A stretch of 64,000 nt of DNA, taken from Catellatospora coxensis. Its GTDB lineage: Bacteria; Actinomycetota; Actinomycetes; Mycobacteriales; Micromonosporaceae. This document shows, in pieces, positions 14,461 to 26,289 of the stretch. The position numbers were made by a program, and so were the translations under genes. The notes under the pieces were generated by a model, which made no database searches, was not told where the DNA came from, and saw nothing but the letters and a program-made list of their open reading frames with translations. Every line of letters starts with the position of its first letter. Position 1 is the first letter of the stretch. Location of the stretch: assembly GCF_016862635.1 (NCBI RefSeq), contig NZ_BONI01000023.1, positions 1 to 64,000 of the forward strand, written 5' to 3'.

Positions 14461-15540
14461 TCACCGGGCCGCGGGCTCCGCTTTGGCCGTCATGTAGTCG
14501 AGCCTGGCGAGCAGGTGGCGGGCAACCTGCTCGCCGGTGGTCCATTCGAACGCCGGATCGGGCCGGCAGCCGCCGCGTCTCGCCTGATCCATCAGCCGCC
14601 ACTGCTCGGCGGTCGACACCGTGGCCTCGCCGTGGACGGTCATGCCGGCCTCGCTCATCGCCTTGACGCGCAGCCCGAACGAGTCCGGGTAGGACACCGC
14701 CGGGTGGGTCATGGCCAGCACCGGGATCCGGTTCCACACCAGGTCGCAGGTGACGGTGCCGTTGGCGTTGGTGACCACCAGATCGGCCGCGGCGTAGTAC
14801 TTCTCCGGCTCGGCCGTGAACCCGGCCCAGACGACGTCGGCGGCCCGCGCGGCGGGCACCGCGCAGAACGGCTCGGTCAGCACGAACAGCCGATTGCCGG
14901 GCGGCGAGTGCTCCAGCCAGGTGCGTACGGTCAGCTCGGCGATCGCCGCGTTGTCGACCATCCGGGTCATGCCCCCGATGGTGAGCACGACGACCGTCTC
15001 GGACTCCGCCGCGCCGAGTGCGGCCCGCGCCGCCGCCCGCCCGATCCGGAAGTCCTCGACCACCGGGCCGAACGCCTGGATCGGCCGGGTGACGCCGAAC
15101 GGGCCGGGGTGCGCGACCGCGAAGTCCAGCAGCAGGATCTCACCGGCCTGGTCCAGGATCGGATCGGACTCCGGCGCGCCCAGCTCCGAGTAGAACCAGT
15201 CGGTCAGCAGGATCGCGCGACGCCGCCACTTCTTCACGCAGAACACCAACGACCACACCACCTCGTCGGCGATCACCAGGTCGAACGGGTCGTGCTCGCC
15301 CATCAGCTCCCAGACCCGGGCACCGGCCGCCGGGGTCATGTCCTCGTGGTCGCCGATTCCCATGTCGATGCAGGTCTCGCCGTAGAGGTCGAGGTAGACC
15401 GCGGCGCTGCCGGACGCCATCACCGTGATCGCGACCTCGGGCCGCTGCGCGCGCATCGCCCGGATGATGCGCAGGTCCCGGGCGGCATGCCCGAAACCGT
15501 GGCCGCGGGCCAGGAACAGCACTCGCGGGGCGGTGCTCAT
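14461..15540 (-). CDS. GT-B fold glycosyltransferase (GT28/GT1-like) in the azole RiPP operon
   Basis: A 359-aa protein with the glycine- and histidine-rich N-terminal loop GHGFGHAARDL (residues 13-23) typical of GT-B enzymes such as MurG and macrolide glycosyltransferases. The C-terminal half has a nucleotide-sugar-binding region around NANGTVTCDLVW and PVLAMTHP. It is the last gene of the leftward RiPP operon; its ATG overlaps the stop of the flavoprotein gene (ATGA). Expected reaction: transfer of a sugar from an NDP-sugar to an acceptor, possibly the modified peptide. No sugar-biosynthesis genes are nearby, so a primary-metabolism donor such as UDP-GlcNAc or UDP-Glc is possible (inference). 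Confidence 0.82.
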   Translation of the reverse strand: MSTAPRVLFLARGHGFGHAARDLRIIRAMRAQRPEVAITVMASGSAAVYLDLYGETCIDMGIGDHEDMTPAAGARVWELMGEHDPFDLVIADEVVWSLVFCVKKWRRRAILLTDWFYSELGAPESDPILDQAGEILLLDFAVAHPGPFGVTRPIQAFGPVVEDFRIGRAAARAALGAAESETVVVLTIGGMTRMVDNAAIAELTVRTWLEHSPPGNRLFVLTEPFCAVPAARAADVVWAGFTAEPEKYYAAADLVVTNANGTVTCDLVWNRIPVLAMTHPAVSYPDSFGLRVKAMSEAGMTVHGEATVSTAEQWRLMDQARRGGCRPDPAFEWTTGEQVARHLLARLDYMTAKAEPAAR

Positions 15541-16148
15541 GCGGTCTCCCCCTGGAGTCGGTGGCGCAGCAGTTCGACGGTGCCCAGCGCGGCGGTGAAC
15601 GGTGGCGGCCCGTACGCGTCGTCGCGGCCGGTGGTGAAACTGCGCACCGGCACCGGCGGCAGCACGGTGACCGTGGGCCGCTGCGCCAGCGCCGCCACGT
15701 GCGCGGCGGTGACCGGGCTGTCCCAGCCGCCTGGCGGCAGCGCCGGGGCCACCACGACCGGAGCCGCGCTGCACTGGATCGCCAGCAGGCTGGGCGAGTC
15801 GGCCAGGCCCACCGCCAGCCGCGCGAGGTAGTTCAGGCTCGCCGGATACACCAGCACGGCCTGCGCCCACTGCTGCCAGGTGACGTGCACGGCTTCGGCG
15901 ACCGGCCCGGCCCACTCGTCGACCTGGGCGGCCCGGCCCGTGATCGCGCCGACCGCGGTCGGGGTCAGGAACTGCAGCGCCGACCGGGTCAACACGACCT
16001 GGGCCTCCAGCTGCGGGTAGGCCATGCGCAGCCAGGCGAGGTCGCGGGCCAGGAACGCGGCGTGCAGCGAGCCGGTGGCGACCACCAGCAGCCGCCGGAA
16101 ACCCAGCGGTGGCAGCCGGGGTTCGGCGGAGGGGGTCGAGTCGTCCAT
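15537..16148 (-). CDS. HFCD-family flavoprotein (EpiD/MrsD-like cysteine decarboxylase)
   Basis: A 203-aa flavoprotein of the homo-oligomeric flavin-containing Cys decarboxylase family. It shows the N-terminal VVATGSLHA FMN-binding loop, a His in EAVHVTW at the position of the EpiD active-site His, and PASLNYLARLAVGLAD matching the family's PASANT region. The substrate-recognition segment usually written PxMNxxMW is divergent here (ALPPGGWDSP). Relatives oxidatively decarboxylate C-terminal Cys of epidermin, mersacidin, cypemycin and thioviridamide. The precursor in this operon ends in Cys, which suits this chemistry. It overlaps the GT gene downstream and is adjacent to the dehydrogenase upstream. 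A general phosphopantothenoylcysteine role is unlikely in this context. Confidence 0.82.
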   Translation of the reverse strand: MDDSTPSAEPRLPPLGFRRLLVVATGSLHAAFLARDLAWLRMAYPQLEAQVVLTRSALQFLTPTAVGAITGRAAQVDEWAGPVAEAVHVTWQQWAQAVLVYPASLNYLARLAVGLADSPSLLAIQCSAAPVVVAPALPPGGWDSPVTAAHVAALAQRPTVTVLPPVPVRSFTTGRDDAYGPPPFTAALGTVELLRHRLQGETA

Positions 16149-17498
16149 TCACACATCCTCTCCGGGAAGGGACCCGACGACGATCTCGGCCACCGCGGAC
16201 ACCTCGGCCGGATCGAGGCCGGTCGCCTCGGCGAAGTCGGCGGCGTCGCCGCTGCCGACCGCGCACGCGCCGAGGCCCATCGCGGTGGCGCACAGGTACA
16301 CCGACTGCAGTGCCACGCCCGCGTTGCGCAGCGTCAGCGAGTACGCCAGGTCGCCGTACTTGCGGGTGGTCCGGTCGCCGCGGGCGGCGAGGCTGATCAG
16401 CACCTGCGGGACGGACACCCGGTTGAGGGCCAGGTAGGCGGCGTTGATCAGCCGGACCAGCGGCACCGGGTCGCGGTTGACGACGGCGAGCGCGTGCCGG
16501 TCCGGCAGGTAGCGGTAGACACCGGGGGCCAAGCCTTCGCAGGCGCGGATCGTGAGGTAGTGGTCGAGTTCGTGCATCGCCCCCGCCGACGGTGCCGGCC
16601 GCAGTGTGAAGGCGTAGGAACGGTCGTCGGCGGGGTCGGCGGGCAGCCGCTGCTGGACCCGGGCCACCCGGTGCAGCAGCTCACCCAGCTGGGTCAGGGT
16701 CAGCGGCGTGCCGCCGAACCGGCGCACCGAGCGCCGGGTCTCCATGACCTCGGCCAGCGGCGGGTCGGTGCGGCGCAGGGCCGCGAGGTCGGGCACGGGC
16801 AGCGCGATGTCGGTGCCGGCGGCGGGCTCCGCGGGTGGTTCGTCCAGCGCGCCCGGCGCGACGGTACGCAGTTCGACCAGCCCGTTCCGGCTGCGGGTAT
16901 GGGTCCACACCGCGTGCGGCGGACGTCCGGTCTCCGGGCCGGGCGCGATCACCAGGCCGACCGCGGCCAGCAGCCGCAGCAACTGCTCGCCACCCGGGGC
17001 GTGCCCGGCGGCCGCCGCCGCGACGGCCGGCGCGCACAGGCCCGCCACCACCGCCGCCAGCGCGGGGCGATGCAGCTCGACGATGGTTCCGTCGTGGGCC
17101 GACTCGACGACGGCCCGGTCGTCGAGCCGCCGCAGCAGCGCGTACGGCGAAAGCTGAACCAGCTGGTCCCCGGCCGGCGCGGCGTCGGGCCGGACGTCGG
17201 CGAGCCGGGAGCGGAACCGGGCGGTGGCCACGTCGCCGTGCTCGTCGGCGCAGCCCAGGGTGACGACGCCGGTGACGAGCAGCCGCCGGATCAGCACGTC
17301 GAGCTTTCCTTCGCCGAGCGGCACCTGCTCGTGCAGCTGCTGCCAGGTCGACGGGCGCCGCAGCGCGCCCAGGACGGCGGCCACCGACCCGTCCGCGTCG
17401 TGCAGCGCCACCGGATCGCGGTCCTTGCCGGTGATCAGCAGGTCGGCGGGCGGCTCGTTGTCGACGGTCAGGGCGCCGTCGAGGCGCAGCGTGAGCAT
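16149..17498 (-). CDS. SagB-type FMN-dependent azoline dehydrogenase
   Basis: A 449-aa protein. The N-terminal half (about residues 1-240) is the variable region found in SagB-type proteins. The C-terminal nitroreductase domain begins at ETRRSVRRFGG near residue 250, continues through YLTIRACEGLAPGVYRYLP and LRNAGVALQSVYLCATAMGLGACAVG, and ends GSLPGEDV. The Arg-rich FMN phosphate-binding start and the Gly-rich end match McbC/SagB enzymes, which oxidise azolines to azoles. The start codon is 5 bp after the previous stop, and the stop is directly against the flavoprotein start. Its presence implies that thiazolines made by YcaO are converted to thiazoles. Confidence 0.9.
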   Translation of the reverse strand: MLTLRLDGALTVDNEPPADLLITGKDRDPVALHDADGSVAAVLGALRRPSTWQQLHEQVPLGEGKLDVLIRRLLVTGVVTLGCADEHGDVATARFRSRLADVRPDAAPAGDQLVQLSPYALLRRLDDRAVVESAHDGTIVELHRPALAAVVAGLCAPAVAAAAAGHAPGGEQLLRLLAAVGLVIAPGPETGRPPHAVWTHTRSRNGLVELRTVAPGALDEPPAEPAAGTDIALPVPDLAALRRTDPPLAEVMETRRSVRRFGGTPLTLTQLGELLHRVARVQQRLPADPADDRSYAFTLRPAPSAGAMHELDHYLTIRACEGLAPGVYRYLPDRHALAVVNRDPVPLVRLINAAYLALNRVSVPQVLISLAARGDRTTRKYGDLAYSLTLRNAGVALQSVYLCATAMGLGACAVGSGDAADFAEATGLDPAEVSAVAEIVVGSLPGEDV

Positions 17499-17503
17499 GA
17501 CCG

Positions 17504-18664
17504 CTAGGTGTTCCGGGCGTGGCGGTGGCCGGCCCGGACGGCGTCGAGCATGAGGTCGCCCAGGGGCTGTTCGAGGCCGTCGAGCACGTCGCGGGTGGCG
17601 ACCGGGTGCAGGTGCGCCTGCGGCAGGGTGGTGAACGCGCGCCGCACCACCGGGTCCGCCAGCAGGTGTTCCAGGGCCGCCTCGTCGGTGACCGGGAACC
17701 GGCTGTGCAGCGGGGTGCCGTCGGGCTGGTAGAGCCGGACCGACGGCAGCGTCAACGAGACGCCGATCGCGAACGGTGTCAGCCACAGCCGGTCGAGCAG
17801 CTCGTCGGTGAGCTGCGGGTGCTGCCGCCGCCACCGGTCGGTGTGCGCGCGGGCCAGTTCCGCGACCGCCGCTGGGTCGAGTCCGGTGTCGGCGAGCCAC
17901 TGCTCGGTGGACCGGATCGACCAGGGCAGTCCCCCGTCGTCCAGCGGCTTGCGCAGCGCGAAGTACGGCCGGGACCCGAAGTCGGGCATCTGGTAGTGCG
18001 CGAACGTCGGCAGCAGATCGGCCACGCCCAGCGGCGCGTCCGCGCGGGGCGGCACGTCGTCGGCGAAGCAGGCGGAGCGGCGCGGGCCCTGGTGGAGGTT
18101 GCCGGTGAGGCTGTCCGGGGAGTCGTGGTCGACCAGGTTCGGGATGCGGCAGATGGCGGCGACGTGCCGGTCGCGGAGGAAGTTCATCAGCGCGACGTCG
18201 TCGGTCGGGGTCCACTCGCGCTGGTTGCGGGTGGCGGCCTCGCCGAACTCGCGGGCGACCCGGGCGGGCAGGACCAGGGCGACGCTCGGCACGTACTCGT
18301 CCACGACCCCGGCCCAGGTCCCGCCCGCGAGGGCGGCCATACGCAGGTGGTGGGCGGTCATCGAGGTCCACTCGGTGAACAGGGCCAGGGCCGCGTCCGG
18401 GTGCTGCGCGATCGCGGCGTGCACGGCGTCGGCGAAGCCCCGGCAGGGCACGGCGTCGTCCTGCAGCACCAGGTGGTGGGTGGCGTGTTCGGGTACGAAC
18501 GACCAGGCCACGGCGGCGGTGCGCAGCGACGACGGCGGCCCGTGCGGGTCCGGGTCGACGACGATGTCGGGTTTGAGTTCGGGCAGGCTGTCGGCGAGCG
18601 CCTCGGCGAGGGCGAGCCGGCTCGGATGCGCCATGATCACAGTGGACAGCTGGTATTCGGTCAT
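17504..18664 (-). CDS. Putative GT-A type glycosyltransferase in the RiPP operon
   Basis: A 386-aa protein. The N-terminal domain opens STVIMAHPSRLALAEALA and later has HHLVLQDDAVPC, an arrangement like the nucleotide-sugar site and acidic DxD-type motif of GT-A enzymes (beta-strand, then QDDA near residue 90). The C-terminal half (about residues 210-386) has no motif I recognise. The start overlaps the stop of the upstream 175-aa gene by 4 bases, so it is translationally coupled in the operon. With the GT-B gene at the end, the cluster would carry two sugar transferases. The family call is moderate; it could instead be a degenerate GT-A protein with another role. Confidence 0.6.
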   Translation of the reverse strand: MTEYQLSTVIMAHPSRLALAEALADSLPELKPDIVVDPDPHGPPSSLRTAAVAWSFVPEHATHHLVLQDDAVPCRGFADAVHAAIAQHPDAALALFTEWTSMTAHHLRMAALAGGTWAGVVDEYVPSVALVLPARVAREFGEAATRNQREWTPTDDVALMNFLRDRHVAAICRIPNLVDHDSPDSLTGNLHQGPRRSACFADDVPPRADAPLGVADLLPTFAHYQMPDFGSRPYFALRKPLDDGGLPWSIRSTEQWLADTGLDPAAVAELARAHTDRWRRQHPQLTDELLDRLWLTPFAIGVSLTLPSVRLYQPDGTPLHSRFPVTDEAALEHLLADPVVRRAFTTLPQAHLHPVATRDVLDGLEQPLGDLMLDAVRAGHRHARNT

Positions 18665-19188
18665 GGCGCTTCCTTGGCGGTGACGGTGGTCAGGTGGGTC
18701 ATCGGGGCGTGCGCGGTGGCCAGTGGCCAGGCGATGGTCTCGTCGTCGCAGGTCACGTGGTGCAGGCTGCCGCCGAGCAGGGTGGCCAGGTGCGCCGACA
18801 CGACTCCGGCGGCGACGGCGAGTGCCCGGTAGTCGCCAGGCGAGTCGGTGGCGGGGCCGCCGAGCAGCACGGCCACATCGGCGTCGAGGTGCGCCAGCGG
18901 CGGCGGTTGCGCATGGACGAGGTGCAGCGATCCGGCAGCGTCTACGCGGTAGGCGCCGGTCGTCGTGCCGGTCGGGCCGAGAATCACGACGCAGGCCGTC
19001 AGCGGCTCCGGTGAGCATGCCAGGGATCGGAGCACAGCGGCCCCGATGCCGTCGTCCGTCGCCGGCGACGGCGTCAGGGGTCGAACCGCTGCGTCCCCAG
19101 TGCTGTCACCTGCTCCGGGGCGGCGTGGTCCGGTGTAGTCCAGGCGCAGCGCGGCGCTCAGGGCGGTGTCCTTGGGCTGGATGGGCAT
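18661..19188 (-). CDS. Unknown RiPP-operon protein, possibly a degenerate nitroreductase-like half domain
   Basis: A 175-aa protein coupled at both ends: its ATG overlaps the upstream stop (ATGA) and its TGA overlaps the downstream ATG. I recognise no defined family. The segment TTTGAYRVDAAGSLHLVHAQ followed by an Ala-rich helix and LLGGSLHHV resembles the C-terminal core of SagB-type nitroreductases (GxYRYDP, then an Ala-rich helix and a G-rich turn), but the FMN-binding Arg motif is absent. A non-catalytic partner of the dehydrogenase is one reading. The dense overlaps show it is a functional part of the operon and not a chance reading frame. Confidence 0.6.
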   Translation of the reverse strand: MPIQPKDTALSAALRLDYTGPRRPGAGDSTGDAAVRPLTPSPATDDGIGAAVLRSLACSPEPLTACVVILGPTGTTTGAYRVDAAGSLHLVHAQPPPLAHLDADVAVLLGGPATDSPGDYRALAVAAGVVSAHLATLLGGSLHHVTCDDETIAWPLATAHAPMTHLTTVTAKEAP

Positions 19189-20549
19189 CAGGGCCGCTCC
19201 GGGTGGATTCCGACGACGGCCGCGAGGTGTTCGCCGCCGTCGTGCAGTTCCAGCAGGTCGGCCAGGGCCGGGTCGACGGTGTCGGCGAGCACGGCGTGGT
19301 GGCCGGCGGTGACGGCCGCGACCGCCCGTCCGGCGGCCAGGAACGCCCGGCGCAGCCCCTGCTCGGCGTATGCCGAGGCCAGCCGTGTGCTGGCGGCGAC
19401 GAACACGAGCACGGCGGCCGGGGCTTCCGGAAGTCCCGCGATCGCCGGGGCGGCGGTGAGGTCGCCACGGGTGGCGATGAGCGCCTGGGTGGACGGCGAC
19501 CAGCGGTACACCGGGTGCGGCAGGCCGTGCACGCCGAGCAGGTAGGTGTCGGCGTACGGCCGGGCCGTGGCCGCCGGCAGCAGGGTCCGCAGCCAGGGCG
19601 GCGCTTCGCTCAGCGGCACCCGGGGCGAGGACGCCAGGTCGGCGTCGGCGGTGGCGGCGATCGCCCGGTCGCCGGTGACCTGCCAGGACGCCCGCCGGTT
19701 GAGCCACTCCAGCCGGCCGAGCACGCCGTCGCCGGCCATGGCGCAGGTCCGGCACGTGGCTGACGGGGTGACCTCGTGAACGGTGCGGCCGAGGTCGACG
19801 GTGTCGATGCGGTGCAGGCGGCGACCGGTGACCGGATCGGCGAGCCTGGTCAGCAGGCCGACGGCCTCGGCGACGGCCAGCCCGCACAGCAGCTGCGCCG
19901 CCGCCCGCCCGAGGACGGGAGCGCCGGCAGACCCGTCGTCGGCCAGGAAGCAGTCCGGGCACGTGGTCTCCGCGCCGGTGAACAGCGGTCCGAGTTCGAC
20001 GGTGCGGGCGTCGCCGCCGATACGCAGCACGGGCACACCGGTCGCAGCGACGGAGGCGAGCTGGTCGTCGGTGGCGATGGCCAGTGCCGCCGCGCGGGTC
20101 GCGTCCGTGGTGACCGTGCCGATGCCGGACAGGGCCAGGTCGGCTGCGAGCAGTTCGCCGAGCTCACCCGCCACGGCGACGATGACGGGGGCCTCGGCCA
20201 GCCGTTCGCGCAGCGTCGCGGGCCGGTCGTGGCTTCCGGAGGCGGCCAGGGCGCGGGATCGGAAGGCCTCGGCGGCGTCGCCGGGTTCGGCGGGACCGTC
20301 GTGGAGCAGCCCGCTGCGGTGCAGCAGTGCCACGGCCTGCGCGACCTGCGCGACGGGCGCCTCGGCCGCGTCAGCGACCGCCGCCAGGCCGGTGCGGCCG
20401 TCCAGCAGCGGCAGCAGCCGCGGCAGCAGGTCACGGGCGGCGGCGCCGGTGAACAGCCGGCGGCTCGGGCCGCCCTCGATCAGCAGCCCGTCGGCGGTGT
20501 CCACGACGGCCAGTCCGGCCGCCAGCGCGGGAAACCCGAGGCGGCTCAC
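19188..20549 (-). CDS. TOMM cyclodehydratase partner, ThiF/E1-like with Cys tetrad (protein C type)
   Basis: A 453-aa protein beginning with GTG, overlapping the upstream stop (GTGA). Residues 1-100 are a winged-helix-like region (LLPRLLPLLDGRTGL and VAQAVALLHRSGLL) of the kind that binds leader peptides. An E1/ThiF-like domain follows, with CPDC near residue 197 and CRTC near residue 266 forming a zinc tetrad. The C-terminal 180 residues include a LGVHGLPHPVYRWSP segment typical of nitroreductase-associated or docking modules. In azole RiPP pathways such proteins recruit the precursor leader and activate the YcaO enzyme. Confidence 0.82.
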   Translation of the reverse strand: MSRLGFPALAAGLAVVDTADGLLIEGGPSRRLFTGAAARDLLPRLLPLLDGRTGLAAVADAAEAPVAQVAQAVALLHRSGLLHDGPAEPGDAAEAFRSRALAASGSHDRPATLRERLAEAPVIVAVAGELGELLAADLALSGIGTVTTDATRAAALAIATDDQLASVAATGVPVLRIGGDARTVELGPLFTGAETTCPDCFLADDGSAGAPVLGRAAAQLLCGLAVAEAVGLLTRLADPVTGRRLHRIDTVDLGRTVHEVTPSATCRTCAMAGDGVLGRLEWLNRRASWQVTGDRAIAATADADLASSPRVPLSEAPPWLRTLLPAATARPYADTYLLGVHGLPHPVYRWSPSTQALIATRGDLTAAPAIAGLPEAPAAVLVFVAASTRLASAYAEQGLRRAFLAAGRAVAAVTAGHHAVLADTVDPALADLLELHDGGEHLAAVVGIHPERP

Positions 20550-21169
20550 GCGAGCGCTCCTTCGGGCAGCCGGTTCGCGGTCTCGGCGAGGGCCGCGGCC
20601 AGGCGCGGGTCGCCCCAGGTGTCGGCGGAGCCGCAGCGCGGGCAGCCGTGCCGGGCGATGACGTCGACCCGGCTCACCAGCATGGTGGCCAGGTCGGCCA
20701 TGGTGGTCATGCCCGGCTGCGGGTGCTGCAGCATGAGCTGGGCCAGCGCCTCGGCGGTGCGCACATGGTGCGGCAGATGGCCGTGAACGCCGAGTCCGTC
20801 GTCGGCGCGGTACGCGGCCAGCAGCGCCGCGCGGTGCCGCGCCTTCGGGTCGTGCTGTTCCCGGCGGAAGGAGTAGCAGTCGTAGCAGGGGCCGCCGGGG
20901 GCCACCCAGGGGCCGGCGATCAGCCACGGGTGTTCCACCACGACGGGCAGCCAGCCGATCCCGGCCCGGCTCGCGAGTTCGTCGAACCGCTGGGCCCGGT
21001 CCGGTTCGGGCCGCCACGACACCAGCACCATCGCCCGCGCGCCGCCCGGTTCGGGGCGGTCGGCGTCCAGGGGCGTCGCGCCGGCGGCCAGCAGGCGGGC
21101 CTGCACGGCGTGGCCGAACTCCCCCACGGCGGCGACCGCCGTCTCGGTCAGGCGAACGGCTGCGGCCAC
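20546..21169 (-). CDS. Second, short E1-like TOMM partner protein with Cys tetrad
   Basis: A 207-aa protein starting with GTG at 21169, chosen because AGGAG lies 8 bases upstream; it overlaps the 3' end of the YcaO gene by 22 bp. It has a GPCYDCYSFRREQ motif near residue 95 and CPRCGS near residue 176, the two CxxC pairs of the zinc site in ThiF-like cyclodehydratase partners. The length is about that of the E1 core alone, lacking an obvious leader-binding winged helix. Together with the next gene it looks like a split or duplicated partner protein. It lies 4 bp overlapped with that gene, so both are likely made in equal amounts. Confidence 0.75.
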   Translation of the reverse strand: MAAAVRLTETAVAAVGEFGHAVQARLLAAGATPLDADRPEPGGARAMVLVSWRPEPDRAQRFDELASRAGIGWLPVVVEHPWLIAGPWVAPGGPCYDCYSFRREQHDPKARHRAALLAAYRADDGLGVHGHLPHHVRTAEALAQLMLQHPQPGMTTMADLATMLVSRVDVIARHGCPRCGSADTWGDPRLAAALAETANRLPEGALA

Positions 21170-22413
21170 GGGTTCTGCTCCTGTTCGGGGGAGGCCGGCA
21201 CGCCCATCGCCGCGGGCGCCTCGGCCAGTCGCGGGTGGGCGCGGAACTGCGCCAGCGGGGCCAGGGACATCGGCTGCAGCTGCGGCACCACCACGGTCAG
21301 CGCGACCAGCCCGACCCGGCGCAGCTCGGCCGAGGTCCGGTCGACGCACACCGCCTGCGCGCCGATCCCGCGCAGCCGATCGAGCACCACCGCGAGTGCC
21401 TCGGCCGGATCGGCCGGCAGTTCCCGGCAGTCGTCCGAGGTGGGCCGGCGGGCGAGGTCCTCGGTGAGGAAGGCGAAGGCTTCGGCCCGCTGCGCCACCG
21501 CCATGTACCGCGCGCCGTCCATGATGTCGGTGAACCTGGTGTCGCCGTGCACGGGCGCGGTGCCGTGCGGGAACAGCTGCCGGATGTTGGCGATCTCGAT
21601 GAGCGCCTTCTCCGCCGCGTCGGCCAGGGTGCGGCCGGTCGCCGCGCCGACCAGGTTCGCGGCCTGCGCGTCGTGGGGCGCCCGCTGCAGCACGTACACC
21701 GTCGGGACGCCCAGGTCGGTGGTGGCGTTGAACAGCACGTTGTCCAGGAAGCGGCGGCGGCCGTGGTCGAGCAGGTACCGCACGGCCGGGCTGGACCCGG
21801 CGGGCCCGAGCAGCGGCAGCCGCAGCCGCCGCAGCCAGGTGAGCGCGATGGCGTCGCGTTCGATGACCTCCAGCAGCCCGCCGAGCAGCGCGCGCCGCGG
21901 TTCGACGTGCACGGCGTACCCGGTGGAGATCTGGAAGACGAAGCGCTCGGCGGGTTCGGGGTGCAGCCCGTAGCAGGCCATCACGGCGGGCACCCAGGTC
22001 GGCTCGCCGGTCGTCAGGTCGGTGCCGCGCAGCCAGCGGATCTCCGCGGCGGGGTCGGCCGGGACGACGGGGCAGCCGGGGTGCGCGTACTCGGCGTCGG
22101 AGCAGCGGGGCAGCCGGGTCAGGTCGAGGACCGCGCCGGGCAGGTCCGCGGCGGTGGCCCGGACGGTGTCGGCCTCGGGGTAGCTGCCCACGTACCGCTC
22201 GGCGGCTTCGGCGATCGCGACGGTGGTGGCGAGAGCGGCGTCGAATCCGCGCCCGGTGCCCAGCTGCGGGTTGCCGTCGTGGTGGCCGGTGTGCGAGTCG
22301 CCGCTGGCGGCGACCACGTGGCTGAGCAGGTCGAGGCCGCGGTCCGGCAGCAGCGGCCGCAGCCCGCTGACCACTCCCAGCGGGCTGACCAGGCTGGCGA
22401 GATCTGCGCTCAT
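21148..22413 (-). CDS. YcaO-domain azoline-forming cyclodehydratase
   Basis: A 421-aa YcaO protein, close to the length of stand-alone TOMM D proteins. ATP-binding Glu/Arg motifs are seen as AIAEAAERYVGSY, LLEVIERDAIAL and EKALIEIANIRQ. The C-terminus ends NPWPQPFA, carrying the PxPxP signature that is diagnostic of azoline-forming YcaOs. The enzyme uses ATP to cyclodehydrate Cys (or Ser/Thr) of the precursor to azolines. The ATG at 22413 was preferred over the ATG at 22419 because AGGA lies 6 bases before it. It follows the precursor gene by 82 bp. Confidence 0.95.
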   Translation of the reverse strand: MSADLASLVSPLGVVSGLRPLLPDRGLDLLSHVVAASGDSHTGHHDGNPQLGTGRGFDAALATTVAIAEAAERYVGSYPEADTVRATAADLPGAVLDLTRLPRCSDAEYAHPGCPVVPADPAAEIRWLRGTDLTTGEPTWVPAVMACYGLHPEPAERFVFQISTGYAVHVEPRRALLGGLLEVIERDAIALTWLRRLRLPLLGPAGSSPAVRYLLDHGRRRFLDNVLFNATTDLGVPTVYVLQRAPHDAQAANLVGAATGRTLADAAEKALIEIANIRQLFPHGTAPVHGDTRFTDIMDGARYMAVAQRAEAFAFLTEDLARRPTSDDCRELPADPAEALAVVLDRLRGIGAQAVCVDRTSAELRRVGLVALTVVVPQLQPMSLAPLAQFRAHPRLAEAPAAMGVPASPEQEQNPWPQPFA

Positions 22414-22495
22414 TGACATTCCTGAAACAAGGTCCGCAGGAGGCGCGACGGTGGCGCGGCGAGGCCGGCCACCGTCGCGGGTTCGCATCAGAGGG

Positions 22496-22657
22496 TCAGC
22501 AACCGCAGCCGCAGGCGCAGCCGCAACCGCAGCCGGTGACCGGGGCGAGCTCCGGGTCCTGCGGGGTCAGCTCGCCGGCGTTGCGCATGATCTCGGTGAC
22601 GAGCATGTCCCAGTCGCCGGTGGAGACGTCCTGGACGTCCAGGTCGAGGTGGTTCAT
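22496..22657 (-). CDS. Azole RiPP precursor peptide, 53 aa, core CGCGCACGCGC
   Basis: A short gene ahead of the YcaO enzyme, with a strong GGAGG site (22662-22666) four bases before its ATG. The leader (about residues 1-42) is acidic and helix-prone, beginning MNHLDLDVQDV, like leaders of thiopeptide and linear azole peptides. The core (residues 43-53) is six Cys alternating with Gly or Ala, CGCGCACGCGC, and Cys is the last residue. Every Cys is preceded by Gly or Ala, ideal for thiazole formation. With YcaO and SagB-type enzymes the predicted product is a hexathiazole chain. A metallothionein-like peptide is the alternative reading, but the neighbours argue against it. Confidence 0.93.
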   Translation of the reverse strand: MNHLDLDVQDVSTGDWDMLVTEIMRNAGELTPQDPELAPVTGCGCGCACGCGC

Positions 22658-22677
22658 TCTTCCTCCAAACCAGATCT

Positions 22678-22689
22678 GTTAACAAACCT
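22678..22689. promoter_or_regulatory. 12-bp motif GTTAACAAACCT upstream of the RiPP precursor
   Basis: This 12-mer sits 20 bp ahead of the precursor ATG and recurs exactly, in the same orientation, at 24868-24879 upstream of the GH76 gene. In this GC-rich genome such an AT-rich exact match is unlikely to be chance. It may be a common operator or extended -10 region. Confidence 0.4.
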
Positions 22690-22939: not shown

Positions 22940-24769
22940 CTACGGAGACTTCGGCGTCGCGGCCAGCAGCGCGCCGAGACCGGAGGCCTGGGTGCGCCAG
23001 TCGCGCGCGTTCGGGGTGCCGCCGGCCCAGCGCTGCCCGATCCGGTTCAGGCTGTCCCGGTCGTACTGCCAGATCGAATCGACCTGCCGCTGGGCGTAGG
23101 TGCGGTACGCGGCAACGCCGGAGGCGTCGGCCAGATCCATCAGATACCGCATGAAGATGCCCTTGAACTGCTTCTGGTTGTCGTCGCAGCTGTTGGCCGG
23201 GTCGCAGGACTCGGTGAGGATGCCCGAGCGGGTCAGCACCGCCGAGTTCATCGCGGCGTCGGCGAGCTGCCGCGCCTGGGTCAGCAGCGACGCGTTGCCG
23301 GTGGCCCGCCACAGCTCGACCGCCCCGCCGATCGCCAACCCCTGGTTGTACGTCCACACGGTCTGCCCGTTGTTCGCGCAGCCCCCGGTGATCCCGTCGT
23401 TGACCAGCCCCGAGCCGTTGATCATGCCGCTCGCGCGGAACCAGTTCCAGCCCGCGTTCGCCCGGCCGAGCCACAGCGTGTCGCCGGCGATGCGGTTGTG
23501 CAGCGCCGCGGTGAGCCGGACGTACAGCCCGATGGTGACCGCGTTCTTGTACGTGCGCTCGCGGTTCCACCAGACCCCGCCGCCGCAGACCCCGTCCCAG
23601 TACGAGTGCATGTAGTTCGCGATGGTCACGGCCGTGTTCAGGAACTTGGCGTCGCGGGTGACGTCGTACGCCTGCACCCAGGCCAGCGCCCACCAGCCGG
23701 TGTCGTCGATCGCGCGGCTGATGAAGTTGCCCTCGATCGCGTCGCCGCTCTTCTGCCCCGCCGGCATCACGCCCTTGTTCAGCTCGTACGTCCGGTCGAT
23801 CAGCCACCGGTAGTCGCTGCGGCCGGTGCGCGCCGACCAGTCCCCCAGCGCGGTGACCGCGACCGCCGAGTTCCACCAGCTCGACGGCCACCACGCGGTG
23901 TCCGTGCGGTACGCGAAGGCCAGCGCGTCCGCGGCGGCGGCCGGCCGGTCGGCGGCGGGCCGGGCCCAGGCGGTGCAGCTGCCGTTCGCGCCGCCGGTGG
24001 CCCGGCCGCAGGCGCGCACCGCCCCGCCGTACAGCAGCGAGCGCGGATCGCGCGTGTTGACCATGGTCGTGCGCACCGAGCCCGCCCCGGCCGGGACGCT
24101 GACCCGCCCCAGCGACGAGCCGCCGGGCCAGGACGCGCCCTCGTCCCACGAGCGGTCCAGCCACACCTCGTCGCCGGCCGTGCCCGAGCCGAGCGTGGCC
24201 CAGGCCAGGCCGCGGTTGTCGATGTGCAGGTCGATGCGGCGGTTGCTGATCGTGGTCCCGGGCACCGGCTGGTTGTCGCCGACCGCGCCGGCCGGGTCCG
24301 CCCCGTCGCAGACGGCGTCGCACACCTTGACGTACACCCAGGCGGTGCAGGTGACCCCGCCCGCGTTGCCGCAGGCGCGGACCATGCCACGCCGGTGCGC
24401 GGCGGGGTCGGCGAGGTTGTACATCAGGGTGCGGGTGCCGGTCCAGGCCGACGGGATGCTCGCCCGGCCGAGCAGGCCGTCCCAGGTGGAGCCGTCGGTC
24501 CAGCTGCGGTCCAGCCACACGGAGTCGCCCACGACGCCGTTGTCGATGCTGCCCCAGGCCATCCGGTCGGCGTCGGAGACGTGCAGGACCAGCCGCCGCC
24601 CGTTGAGGTTGACCTCGGGCACGGGGAAGGTCTCCTGGCGGGCCAGGGACGGATCGCGGGTGTCGCAGTACAGCGCGCACACCGCCGGGGCCGCGCTCGC
24701 CGGGGTCGCGACCACCGTGCCCGCCGCTGCCACCAGCAGCACCGTCATGAGGACTGTCAGCTTGCGCAT
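22940..24769 (-). CDS. Secreted glycoside hydrolase family 76 protein with duplicated N-terminal module
   Basis: A 609-aa exported protein with a Sec signal peptide (MRKLTVLM start, hydrophobic core, cleavage after PASA near residue 29). Two tandem modules of about 110 residues follow, each with a VWLDRSW motif and a CTAW-type ending. The GH76 catalytic domain runs from about residue 260 to the end and contains the IDDTGWW motif whose adjacent Asp pair (near 354-355) is catalytic in alpha-1,6-mannanases. The ATG at 24769 has AGGTGG upstream and was preferred to the GTG at 24778. Likely role: cleavage of alpha-mannan or a related cell-wall glycan. Confidence 0.9.
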   Translation of the reverse strand: MRKLTVLMTVLLVAAAGTVVATPASAAPAVCALYCDTRDPSLARQETFPVPEVNLNGRRLVLHVSDADRMAWGSIDNGVVGDSVWLDRSWTDGSTWDGLLGRASIPSAWTGTRTLMYNLADPAAHRRGMVRACGNAGGVTCTAWVYVKVCDAVCDGADPAGAVGDNQPVPGTTISNRRIDLHIDNRGLAWATLGSGTAGDEVWLDRSWDEGASWPGGSSLGRVSVPAGAGSVRTTMVNTRDPRSLLYGGAVRACGRATGGANGSCTAWARPAADRPAAAADALAFAYRTDTAWWPSSWWNSAVAVTALGDWSARTGRSDYRWLIDRTYELNKGVMPAGQKSGDAIEGNFISRAIDDTGWWALAWVQAYDVTRDAKFLNTAVTIANYMHSYWDGVCGGGVWWNRERTYKNAVTIGLYVRLTAALHNRIAGDTLWLGRANAGWNWFRASGMINGSGLVNDGITGGCANNGQTVWTYNQGLAIGGAVELWRATGNASLLTQARQLADAAMNSAVLTRSGILTESCDPANSCDDNQKQFKGIFMRYLMDLADASGVAAYRTYAQRQVDSIWQYDRDSLNRIGQRWAGGTPNARDWRTQASGLGALLAATPKSP

Positions 24770-24843: not shown

Positions 24844-24879
24844 ATCTGTCGATATCTGTCGATCGAAGTTAACAAACCT
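24844..24879. promoter_or_regulatory. GH76 promoter elements: tandem ATCTGTCGAT and GTTAACAAACCT
   Basis: Two perfect tandem copies of ATCTGTCGAT occupy 24844-24863, followed at 24868-24879 by the 12-mer that also precedes the RiPP precursor gene. They lie in the 212-bp gap between the divergent GH76 and serpin genes, 75 to 110 bp from the GH76 start. Binding of a sugar-responsive repressor is plausible but unproved. Confidence 0.45.
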
Positions 24880-24981
24880 AACCGTTGACTGTCCATGAAA
24901 CGCGCGTGCCACCACGGGCGAACGCAACCAGCGCTGGGGCCAAGACGTCTCACCCTTCGACGACCGACTCCGGAGGCGACC

Positions 24982-26289
24982 ATGCACGCAGATCATCCCG
25001 ACACCGCCACCGCCACCGCCACCCGGCGCGCGTTGCTGCTGGGGCTGGCCGCGGCGGCCGCGCTGCCGCTGGTCGGCTGTGCCGGCGACGACGGGCCGGA
25101 GCTGGTCACCGCCGCGGACGTGGACCGGGTCGCGCCGCCGGCCGACGCCCCGGTCGCGACCTCCGTCGACGGTGTCGCCGCCTTCGGCCACCGCCTGATG
25201 CAGGCGGCCGCCGAACCCGGGGCCAACTTCGTCGCCTCGCCGCTGAGCATCGCGCTCGCCTTCTCGATGGTGCGCGTCGGCGCGGGCAGCACGACCGCGA
25301 AGGAGCTCGACGCCGCCTTCGGCTTCCCGGCGCAGGGACGCGACGAGGCGTACAACGCGATCAGCGGGCAGCTCGCCACCGTGGACATCCCGCCGAAGCC
25401 GAAGAAAGGCCCGCGCGACCCGAGCGCCAAGCGCACCCCACCGGTGGTGAGCATCGGCAACGCCCTGTTCCCCCAGCAGGGCTTCCAGGTCGGCGAAGCC
25501 TTCCTCCGCACGCTGGCCGAGCAGTACGCCGCGGGCGTCCGCCCGGTCGACTTCGGCGGCGACGCCGCCGACCAGATCAACACGTGGGTGGACCGCCAGA
25601 CCGCGGGCCGGATCGCGAAGGTGTTCGACAGCCTGCCGGCGACCACGAAACTGGTGCTGGCCAACACCGTCTACTTCAAGGCGGACTGGCACAGCTACTT
25701 CCTCGACGTGGCCGACGCCGCCTTCACCAAGGCCGACGGGACGGTCGTCCGCACCCCGACGATGCGCAACGGCCTGCGCATCCGGTATGCCGAGACCGCC
25801 GGCATCGCCGCGATCGAACTGCCCTACGCCGAAGGCCCCTACGCGATGTGGCTGATGCTCCCGCCGTCGGGAGGAAAGCCGGAGGACGCGCTGGCGCACC
25901 AGGTGCTGGCCCGGTTGCGCGACTCGTTCACCGAGCTGCAGGTCGACGTCGCCGTCCCCAAATGGGACTTCGACTTCTCCATCGACCTCCGCACGACCCT
26001 GGCCAAGCTCGGCGTGAGCGCCGCGTTCGACGCCGGCGCCGACTTCGACGGCATCGCACCCGGGCTGTTCATCTCCGCCGCGGTGCACAAGGCGAACATC
26101 ACCGTCGACGAGTACGGGACCGAGGCCGCCGCCGTCACGGGCTTGGCCATGGCGATGAGCGGCCCTCCGCCCACGCAGGCGACGTTCGTCGCCGACCGGC
26201 CGTTCGCGTTCGCCGTCGTCGGCGGCAAGGACCGCGTCCCGCTGTTCATCGGCCGGGTCAGCGACCCGTCGGCCAAGCGATCGAGCTGA
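24982..26289 (+). CDS. Serpin-family lipoprotein protease inhibitor
   Basis: A 435-aa serpin with an N-terminal lipoprotein signal: RRALLLG, a hydrophobic stretch, then the lipobox LVGC with C33 as the lipidated residue. Serpin landmarks include NFVASPLSIALAFSMV, NTWVDRQTAGRI and TKLVLANTVYFKADW. The reactive-loop hinge DEYGTEAAAVTG begins near residue 375 and is short-chain and Ala-rich, as in inhibitory serpins, and VADRPFAFAVV follows. The GGAGG site supports the ATG at 24982. It would sit on the outer face of the membrane and trap serine proteases there. It is divergent from the GH76 gene. Confidence 0.93.
   Translation: MHADHPDTATATATRRALLLGLAAAAALPLVGCAGDDGPELVTAADVDRVAPPADAPVATSVDGVAAFGHRLMQAAAEPGANFVASPLSIALAFSMVRVGAGSTTAKELDAAFGFPAQGRDEAYNAISGQLATVDIPPKPKKGPRDPSAKRTPPVVSIGNALFPQQGFQVGEAFLRTLAEQYAAGVRPVDFGGDAADQINTWVDRQTAGRIAKVFDSLPATTKLVLANTVYFKADWHSYFLDVADAAFTKADGTVVRTPTMRNGLRIRYAETAGIAAIELPYAEGPYAMWLMLPPSGGKPEDALAHQVLARLRDSFTELQVDVAVPKWDFDFSIDLRTTLAKLGVSAAFDAGADFDGIAPGLFISAAVHKANITVDEYGTEAAAVTGLAMAMSGPPPTQATFVADRPFAFAVVGGKDRVPLFIGRVSDPSAKRSS

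Follow-up and report, generated by a model that had tools for sequence, protein, structure and literature searches.

Several described RiPP systems share parts of the locus analyzed here. As set out in the available portions of the reports, heterocycloanthracin clusters combine a SagD-type YcaO, an E1-like partner and a SagB dehydrogenase with Cys-rich precursors whose repeats include Gly-Cys (PMC4603692, PMC2674419). The accessible text on bottromycin describes an azole RiPP with a decarboxylated terminal thiazole (PMC5103208), and persiathiacins and nocathiacin, which are glycosylated thiopeptides in the part of their source that was available, give a precedent for sugars on azole RiPPs (PMC11406533). 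C-terminal Cys residues are the substrate of flavoproteins of the HFCD fold family, such as CypD (cypemycin) and LanD/RosD (class V lanthipeptides); according to the accessible portions of the sources, RosD converts the C-terminal Cys to an enethiol (PMC12291118), and class V lanthipeptide clusters include an F420 oxidoreductase and an M16 peptidase (PMC12291118, PMC7794033). In a 64,000-nucleotide stretch of Catellatospora coxensis DNA, hereafter the window, we analyzed an operon in which a protein resembling CypD and LanD/RosD stands beside azole-forming enzymes and two glycosyltransferase-like proteins. The best reading of this cluster is a new LAP/TOMM subtype, whose product would probably arise by azole steps, HFCD decarboxylation of the C-terminal Cys and glycosylation by the two glycosyltransferase-like proteins.

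The operon comprises nine genes on the minus strand, the precursor gene A and then eight same-strand genes, several of which overlap at their ends (Table 1). In agreement with the preliminary description of this DNA, the ycaO gene, for which an alternative start at 22413 is possible, directly follows the precursor gene, and its product closes with the PxPxP-type end NPWPQPFA, of which WPQPF was retained in 12/12 aligned YcaO rows. The SagB gene had been placed adjacent as well; it lies about 5 kb downstream, as gene seven of the operon. The products of B, C and G all scored above curated NCBIfam cut-offs. A Lys-Tyr pair is a mark of azoline dehydrogenases, and this pair was invariant in all nine aligned SagB rows. 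Upon profile comparison with solved structures, D matched LynD (2.1e-13), TruD (3.1e-12) and a nitroreductase (5.8e-6). The window thus holds what characterizes a LAP/TOMM cluster: a YcaO with an E1-like/RRE partner, a leader with a Cys/Ser/Thr-rich core beside the YcaO, and a flavin-dependent azoline dehydrogenase. The YcaO, the leader-binding protein, the LynD/TruD-like E1 partner and SagB give good support to the earlier assignment of the peptide as an azole RiPP precursor. E matched no Pfam or NCBIfam family save one far under its cut-off; it is kept in five Catellatospora clusters and partly in that of Spongiactinospora (L053), and nowhere else among the nine clusters that pair an HFCD with a window-type YcaO. 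No protease or exporter gene was found within the window operon, which weighs against our reading; an ABC transporter gene follows I in genome G315.

Table 1. Features of the predicted azole RiPP operon and its upstream region (positions in the window)
Feature	Position	Strand	Basis or remark
Upstream box AGGTTTGTTAACAG	22676..22689	−	20 bp before precursor start codon
Ribosome-binding site GGAGGA	22661..22666	−	just 5ʹ of precursor ATG, from sequence
A, precursor peptide, 53 aa	22496..22657	−	core ...TGCGCGCACGCGC
Hairpin with 12-base arms, between precursor and ycaO	22444..22479	−	folding
B, SagD-family YcaO cyclodehydratase with PxPxP end	21148..22419	−	PF02624 206.6 bits; TIGR03604 258.9 bits (cut-off 219.25)
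C, TOMM leader-peptide-binding protein	20546..21169	−	TIGR03882 49 bits (cut-off 36.9)
D, RRE and E1/ThiF-like domain, two CxxC pairs, degenerate nitroreductase-like end	19188..20549	−	profile matches
E, 175-aa protein, fast evolving	18661..19188	−	conservation in relatives
F, putative GT-A-like glycosyltransferase, THHLVLQDDA motif	17504..18664	−	inferred from motifs
G, SagB-type azoline dehydrogenase, Lys-Tyr pair	16149..17498	−	TIGR03605 139.3 bits (cut-off 78.4); PF00881 65.6 bits
H, HFCD flavoprotein, peptidyl-cysteine decarboxylase type	15537..16148	−	PF02441 58.7 bits (cut-off 22.7)
I, putative GT-B-like glycosyltransferase, MJ1255-like N-terminus	14461..15540	−	weak TIGR00661 matches

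The precursor ends in GCGCGCACGCGC directly before its stop codon, with six Cys residues, Gly or Ala before each of them, and Cys as the last residue, exactly as first described. When the core was back-translated into a 33-base pattern, the 64-kb window contained one exact match; two further matches with 2–3 mismatches came from this repeat itself, displaced by one unit, and 100 dinucleotide shuffles gave no match at ≤3 mismatches. Together with the GGAGGA site, the orthologues before the YcaO gene in other Catellatospora genomes and the kindred leaders in further genera, this places the peptide beyond chance. An NCBIfam scan of the precursor returned no family, and the heterocycloanthracin family model was unmatched. 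On another contig (C11; L003, 73–279, plus strand), the C. coxensis genome encodes one more Cys/Ser/Thr-rich peptide that is a candidate precursor; it ends in ...SCCGCTSSSCSSTSSCA and lies near a distant YcaO gene and a D-like gene.

The YcaO search covered 354 genomes of the family, 29 of which matched at 1e-40 or better. Within the genus (11 genomes), five including that of the window carried a close orthologue, the four others being 83–91% identical; one genome held a distant YcaO (48%), and five had none at the 1e-40 threshold. All nine genes were present in identical order in these four other genomes, namely C. vulcania, C. sichuanensis, C. bangladeshensis and G088, each time with a precursor orthologue of conserved leader directly before the YcaO gene. 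Their cores were GCGCGCACGCGC (one), GCGCGCSCACGCGC (one) and GCGCGCSCACACGC (two). Compared with C. vulcania, 45 of the 51 precursor codons (stop included) were identical, four differed synonymously and two non-synonymously.

Beyond the family, an HFCD profile scan of 84,980 species, one genome per species, gave at least 11 loci, which is a lower bound because the scan works via short motifs. Taken with the YcaO search in the family, nine clusters joined an HFCD to a window-type YcaO: those of the five Catellatospora genomes, G315, Spirilliplanes yamanashiensis, Spongiactinospora sp. TRM90649 and Nonomuraea soli, the gene order outside Catellatospora differing from that of the window. Kindred leaders with Cys-ended cores were found in four more genera, and the precursor ends of the nine clusters were GCGCGCACGCGC (two), GCGCGCSCACGCGC (one), GCGCGCSCACACGC (two), SGCCASSVRCGC, ICGCSCASCSCASCTSCGC, TNYCGFCGGC and AYWCCC. 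Cys was the last residue in 9/9 (five genera), with 3–8 Cys residues per core. Given the core composition of each lineage, and with core borders set by the analyst, the probability that every one of the five lineages would end in Cys was 0.004. The strict alternation emphasized in the preliminary description held for the window and every other Catellatospora core (5/9 clusters) and failed in the remaining four, and we rejected it as a defining feature. The Nonomuraea core APVAYWCCC contains neither Ser nor Thr, and the cores have no Ser/Thr position in common.

Nine relatives without an HFCD (L039–L045, L122 and L150) were also examined. Three of their precursors ended in PMCA, one in PPNCI and three in CC; no precursor was found in L044, and L045 had a candidate ending in CCC about 2 kb off. 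The CC-ended clusters, namely L043, L122 and that on the Streptomyces microflavus plasmid NZ_CP054927 (where the absence of an HFCD is taken from the annotation table and five tested proteins), all carry F and I. A Cys end is therefore not diagnostic of H, and the rule that a terminal Cys implies an HFCD was rejected; a Cys end fits an HFCD. A further fifteen, more distant YcaO loci (L017–L031), stretches of about 4 kb each, were covered by the Cys-end scan alone. The search for orthologous loci lacking a Cys-rich peptide before YcaO, which the preliminary description had named as a possible refutation, was run, and the azole reading was not refuted.

Other azole loci came to light alongside these. 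L043, L122 and L150 make up a sister family of azole clusters that carry the F/I pair and in which no HFCD was found; its S. microflavus plasmid member has an ABC transporter. In L039, L040 and L041, two divergently placed YcaO genes of the window family flank a short peptide ending in CGVxQSSNVQC...PMCA, which suggests a separate azole family with two YcaO genes. About 40 kb past the window end, L048 (contig C23, 100000–108643) contains a distant YcaO-like ORF of 30–34% identity and a SagB-like match.

Genes H, F and I did not figure in the preliminary description. Among solved structures, the best relative of H was CypD of cypemycin, a C-terminal Cys decarboxylase (7e-28). H reached 75.6 of the 215 bits of the NCBIfam CypD equivalog (NF033753) and, being far below that cut-off, is not filed as CypD itself. 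His88, which we take from EpiD to be the catalytic base, was invariant in 7/7 rows. H lies inside the operon, and an HFCD is kept in the five Catellatospora clusters and in four more genera, each with a Cys end. The next-closest HFCDs were followed in eleven wide loci (L056–L060 and L140–L145), where a homologue of the F420 oxidoreductase, of the M16 peptidase or of both, according to query gene labels assigned by eye, was present in 10/11, in keeping with class V lanthipeptide clusters; no match to a window-type YcaO was found in any. In an HFCD tree of 35 of the 41 rows (five duplicates of one gene and L101 were omitted, and L098 was absent), the YcaO-linked rows needed two changes and came together in 0/200 bootstrap trees, leaving the notion of one clade unsupported; the strongly supported branches are compatible with a single origin.

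F had no match in Pfam or NCBIfam, and its weak profile match was to a GT-A-like nucleotidyltransferase (E 0.017). I matched TIGR00661 at 0.035, and its Nonomuraea orthologue did so at 5e-5, both under the cut-off; a Streptomyces homologue of I is annotated as a glycosyl transferase. PDB searches returned nothing firm for either protein, and neither matched above any curated cut-off. Motifs, these weak matches and genome context hint that F and I may be glycosyltransferases. Both were present in 9/9 clusters with HFCD and YcaO; in Spongiactinospora, a sugar O-methyltransferase gene comes directly after I (TIGR04371, 53.9 bits, cut-off 44), and a PIG-L deacetylase gene adjoins H in Spirilliplanes (30.7 bits, cut-off 28.2). 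The constant F/I pair and these two sugar-related neighbors lend support to the predicted glycosylation of the peptide.

F belongs to a wider tailoring family, whose scanned members had no Pfam or NCBIfam match. The family occurs in 33/297 genomes of the family of G704 (probably Streptomycetaceae) and in 2/396 genomes of a phylum sample, the C. coxensis genome included. The azole set was present in 1/20 fetched F loci, with weak YcaO matches in two more and a weak D match in one. As most of the family lies outside azole clusters, F as a RiPP-specific enzyme was rejected. Two F paralogues in the C. coxensis genome (L065 on contig C68, L066 on contig C47) stand beside carbamoyltransferase-like and condensation-domain-like genes, labels given by eye.

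The region upstream of the precursor carries a conserved box, GGTTTGTTAAC being found there in 5/5 Catellatospora clusters. The 12-mer AGGTTTGTTAAC has only two sites in the 9.35 Mb C. coxensis genome (expected count 0.046, assuming 72% G+C), at 22678–22689 and 24868–24879, both on the minus strand, the second of which precedes the adjacent GH76 glycoside hydrolase gene (22940–24769). In C. sichuanensis, GH76 is preceded by a relative of the second site that differs at one position; in C. vulcania, the exact 10-base GTTTGTTAAC occurs in a stretch that presumably lies upstream of the GH76 start. As AGGTTTGTTAAC is found only before the precursor and GH76 genes, a common regulator of the two is suggested, perhaps linked to alpha-mannan use. 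GH76 and katG flank the cluster in the window and in C. vulcania and lie together on one side in C. sichuanensis; neither was found near the cluster within the 20.6 kb (C. bangladeshensis) or 14 kb (G088) examined. A full-length bacterial serpin gene (24979–26289, plus strand; PF00079, 272.4 bits) was also observed near the cluster. Between precursor and ycaO, a simple hairpin was obtained in 7/8 clusters folded (Spirilliplanes left out; the fold of L037, long and branched, was uncounted), and it possibly sets the precursor-to-enzyme ratio.

What the sequences show is the gene set, its conservation and the terminal Cys; of the proposed pathway, the first two steps follow from the protein families, and the three later ones we infer. 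C and D would bind the leader and, with the YcaO, cyclodehydrate the Gly-Cys and Ala-Cys units to thiazolines, which SagB would oxidize to thiazoles. As the peptide encoded together with the HFCD ends in Cys, oxidative decarboxylation is placed at that residue, where it would leave an aminoenethiol. The likeliest fate of this enethiol would be for the YcaO to close it onto the amide before it, to a thiazole that lacks the carboxyl and needs no dehydrogenase; closure of R-CO-NH-CH=CH-SH would yield the thiazole directly, and the outcome would match the decarboxylated thiazole of bottromycin. Alternatively, the enethiol could be left open or capped. F and I would then attach one or two sugars. 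In the complete proposal, a tentative one, the YcaO would turn the HFCD-made aminoenethiol into a terminal thiazole that is aromatic and free of carboxyl; the rest of the oligothiazole chain would be all-Gly/Ala, and glycosylation would follow. The available text on CcaB, a YcaO, reports that this enzyme does not modify a C-terminal Cys (PMC10676384), which counts against terminal closure; decarboxylation may come first, or the last residue may have a separate fate.

The preliminary description had predicted up to six aminomethyl-thiazoles at −120.2 Da. As a prediction of azoles, this is sound but incomplete; because an HFCD and two glycosyltransferase-like proteins are encoded in the operon, the structure as a whole is probably not the final product. 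The predicted mass shift is −164.15 Da (−146.14 Da with an open end) plus sugars, rather than −120.16 Da, which corrects the value for a product search. The product would probably be a secreted metabolite, and an antibacterial or metal-binding role is our guess.

Were H idle or acting elsewhere, the operon would make an ordinary LAP that bears as many as six thiazoles and retains its C-terminal carboxylate. The completeness of the azole machinery and the existence of HFCD-less relatives with Cys-ended cores are in line with this; however, the position of H in the operon and its retention across Catellatospora and four more genera, with a Cys end every time, make it unlikely. An AviCys-type ring, in which the terminal enethiol adds to a dehydroalanine, would here need another Cys as the source of that residue, as the window core has no Ser. 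CypD is the closest solved structure to H, and cypemycin, in the accessible part of its source, does take its Dha from Cys (PMC4979651). Against such a ring, the available texts describe partner enzymes alongside the HFCDs of AviCys pathways (PMC9415263, PMC12291118), yet no Ser/Thr dehydratase and no LanX-like or kinase-like cyclase was detected among the nine proteins (E 0.1, Pfam and NCBIfam). Moreover, the last two Cys residues are spaced by 1, 2 or 3 depending on lineage, and no fixed ring fits. We therefore consider the ring very improbable and rejected it as the leading reading.

It is also conceivable that the terminal enethiol, rather than closing or crosslinking, becomes capped, for instance through S-glycosylation by F or I. 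The joint presence of H, F and I in 9/9 clusters with HFCD and YcaO agrees with this, as does the terminal Cys, which all cores share while no Ser or Thr position is shared. But three azole clusters that lack H carry F and I too, so this pair needs no enethiol, and capping appears rather unlikely to us. The most novel of these outcomes would be closure of the enethiol to a terminal thiazole, followed by glycosylation of the chain. If true, it would give the HFCD a role beyond AviCys rings and entail a newly predicted reaction in which an enethiol is closed to an azole; the cores found in nature, which range between AYWCCC and an eight-Cys chain, are available for comparison.

The preliminary description knew of no characterized RiPP with such a core or gene set. 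As to the core, Gly-Cys repeats have a precedent in heterocycloanthracin precursors in the accessible text (PMC4603692). As to the gene set, in the available open-licence literature, we found no description of a SagD-type YcaO with SagB, an HFCD and two glycosyltransferases, nor of a LAP that pairs the two chemistries, each well studied, of HFCD decarboxylation and YcaO azole formation. Most repeats of heterocycloanthracin have the form Cys-Xaa-Xaa, and aromatic motifs stand at their end (available portion of PMC2674419), whereas the window core ends in Cys; the accessible portions of the two reports mention neither an HFCD nor glycosyltransferases (PMC4603692, PMC2674419). In the CypD and LanD/RosD systems, the enethiol proceeds to AviCys via dehydratases and kinase-like cyclases, none of which was detected in the window operon. 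Unlike in thiopeptides, there are no ring-forming genes of the thiopeptide type among those for the nine proteins. Finally, bottromycin, as far as the available text describes it, is decarboxylated by a P450; its YcaO proteins are of the stand-alone kind, its core is N-terminal and a dehydrogenase is absent (PMC5103208). The window cluster, if our reading is true, would represent a P450-free route to decarboxylated terminal thiazoles.
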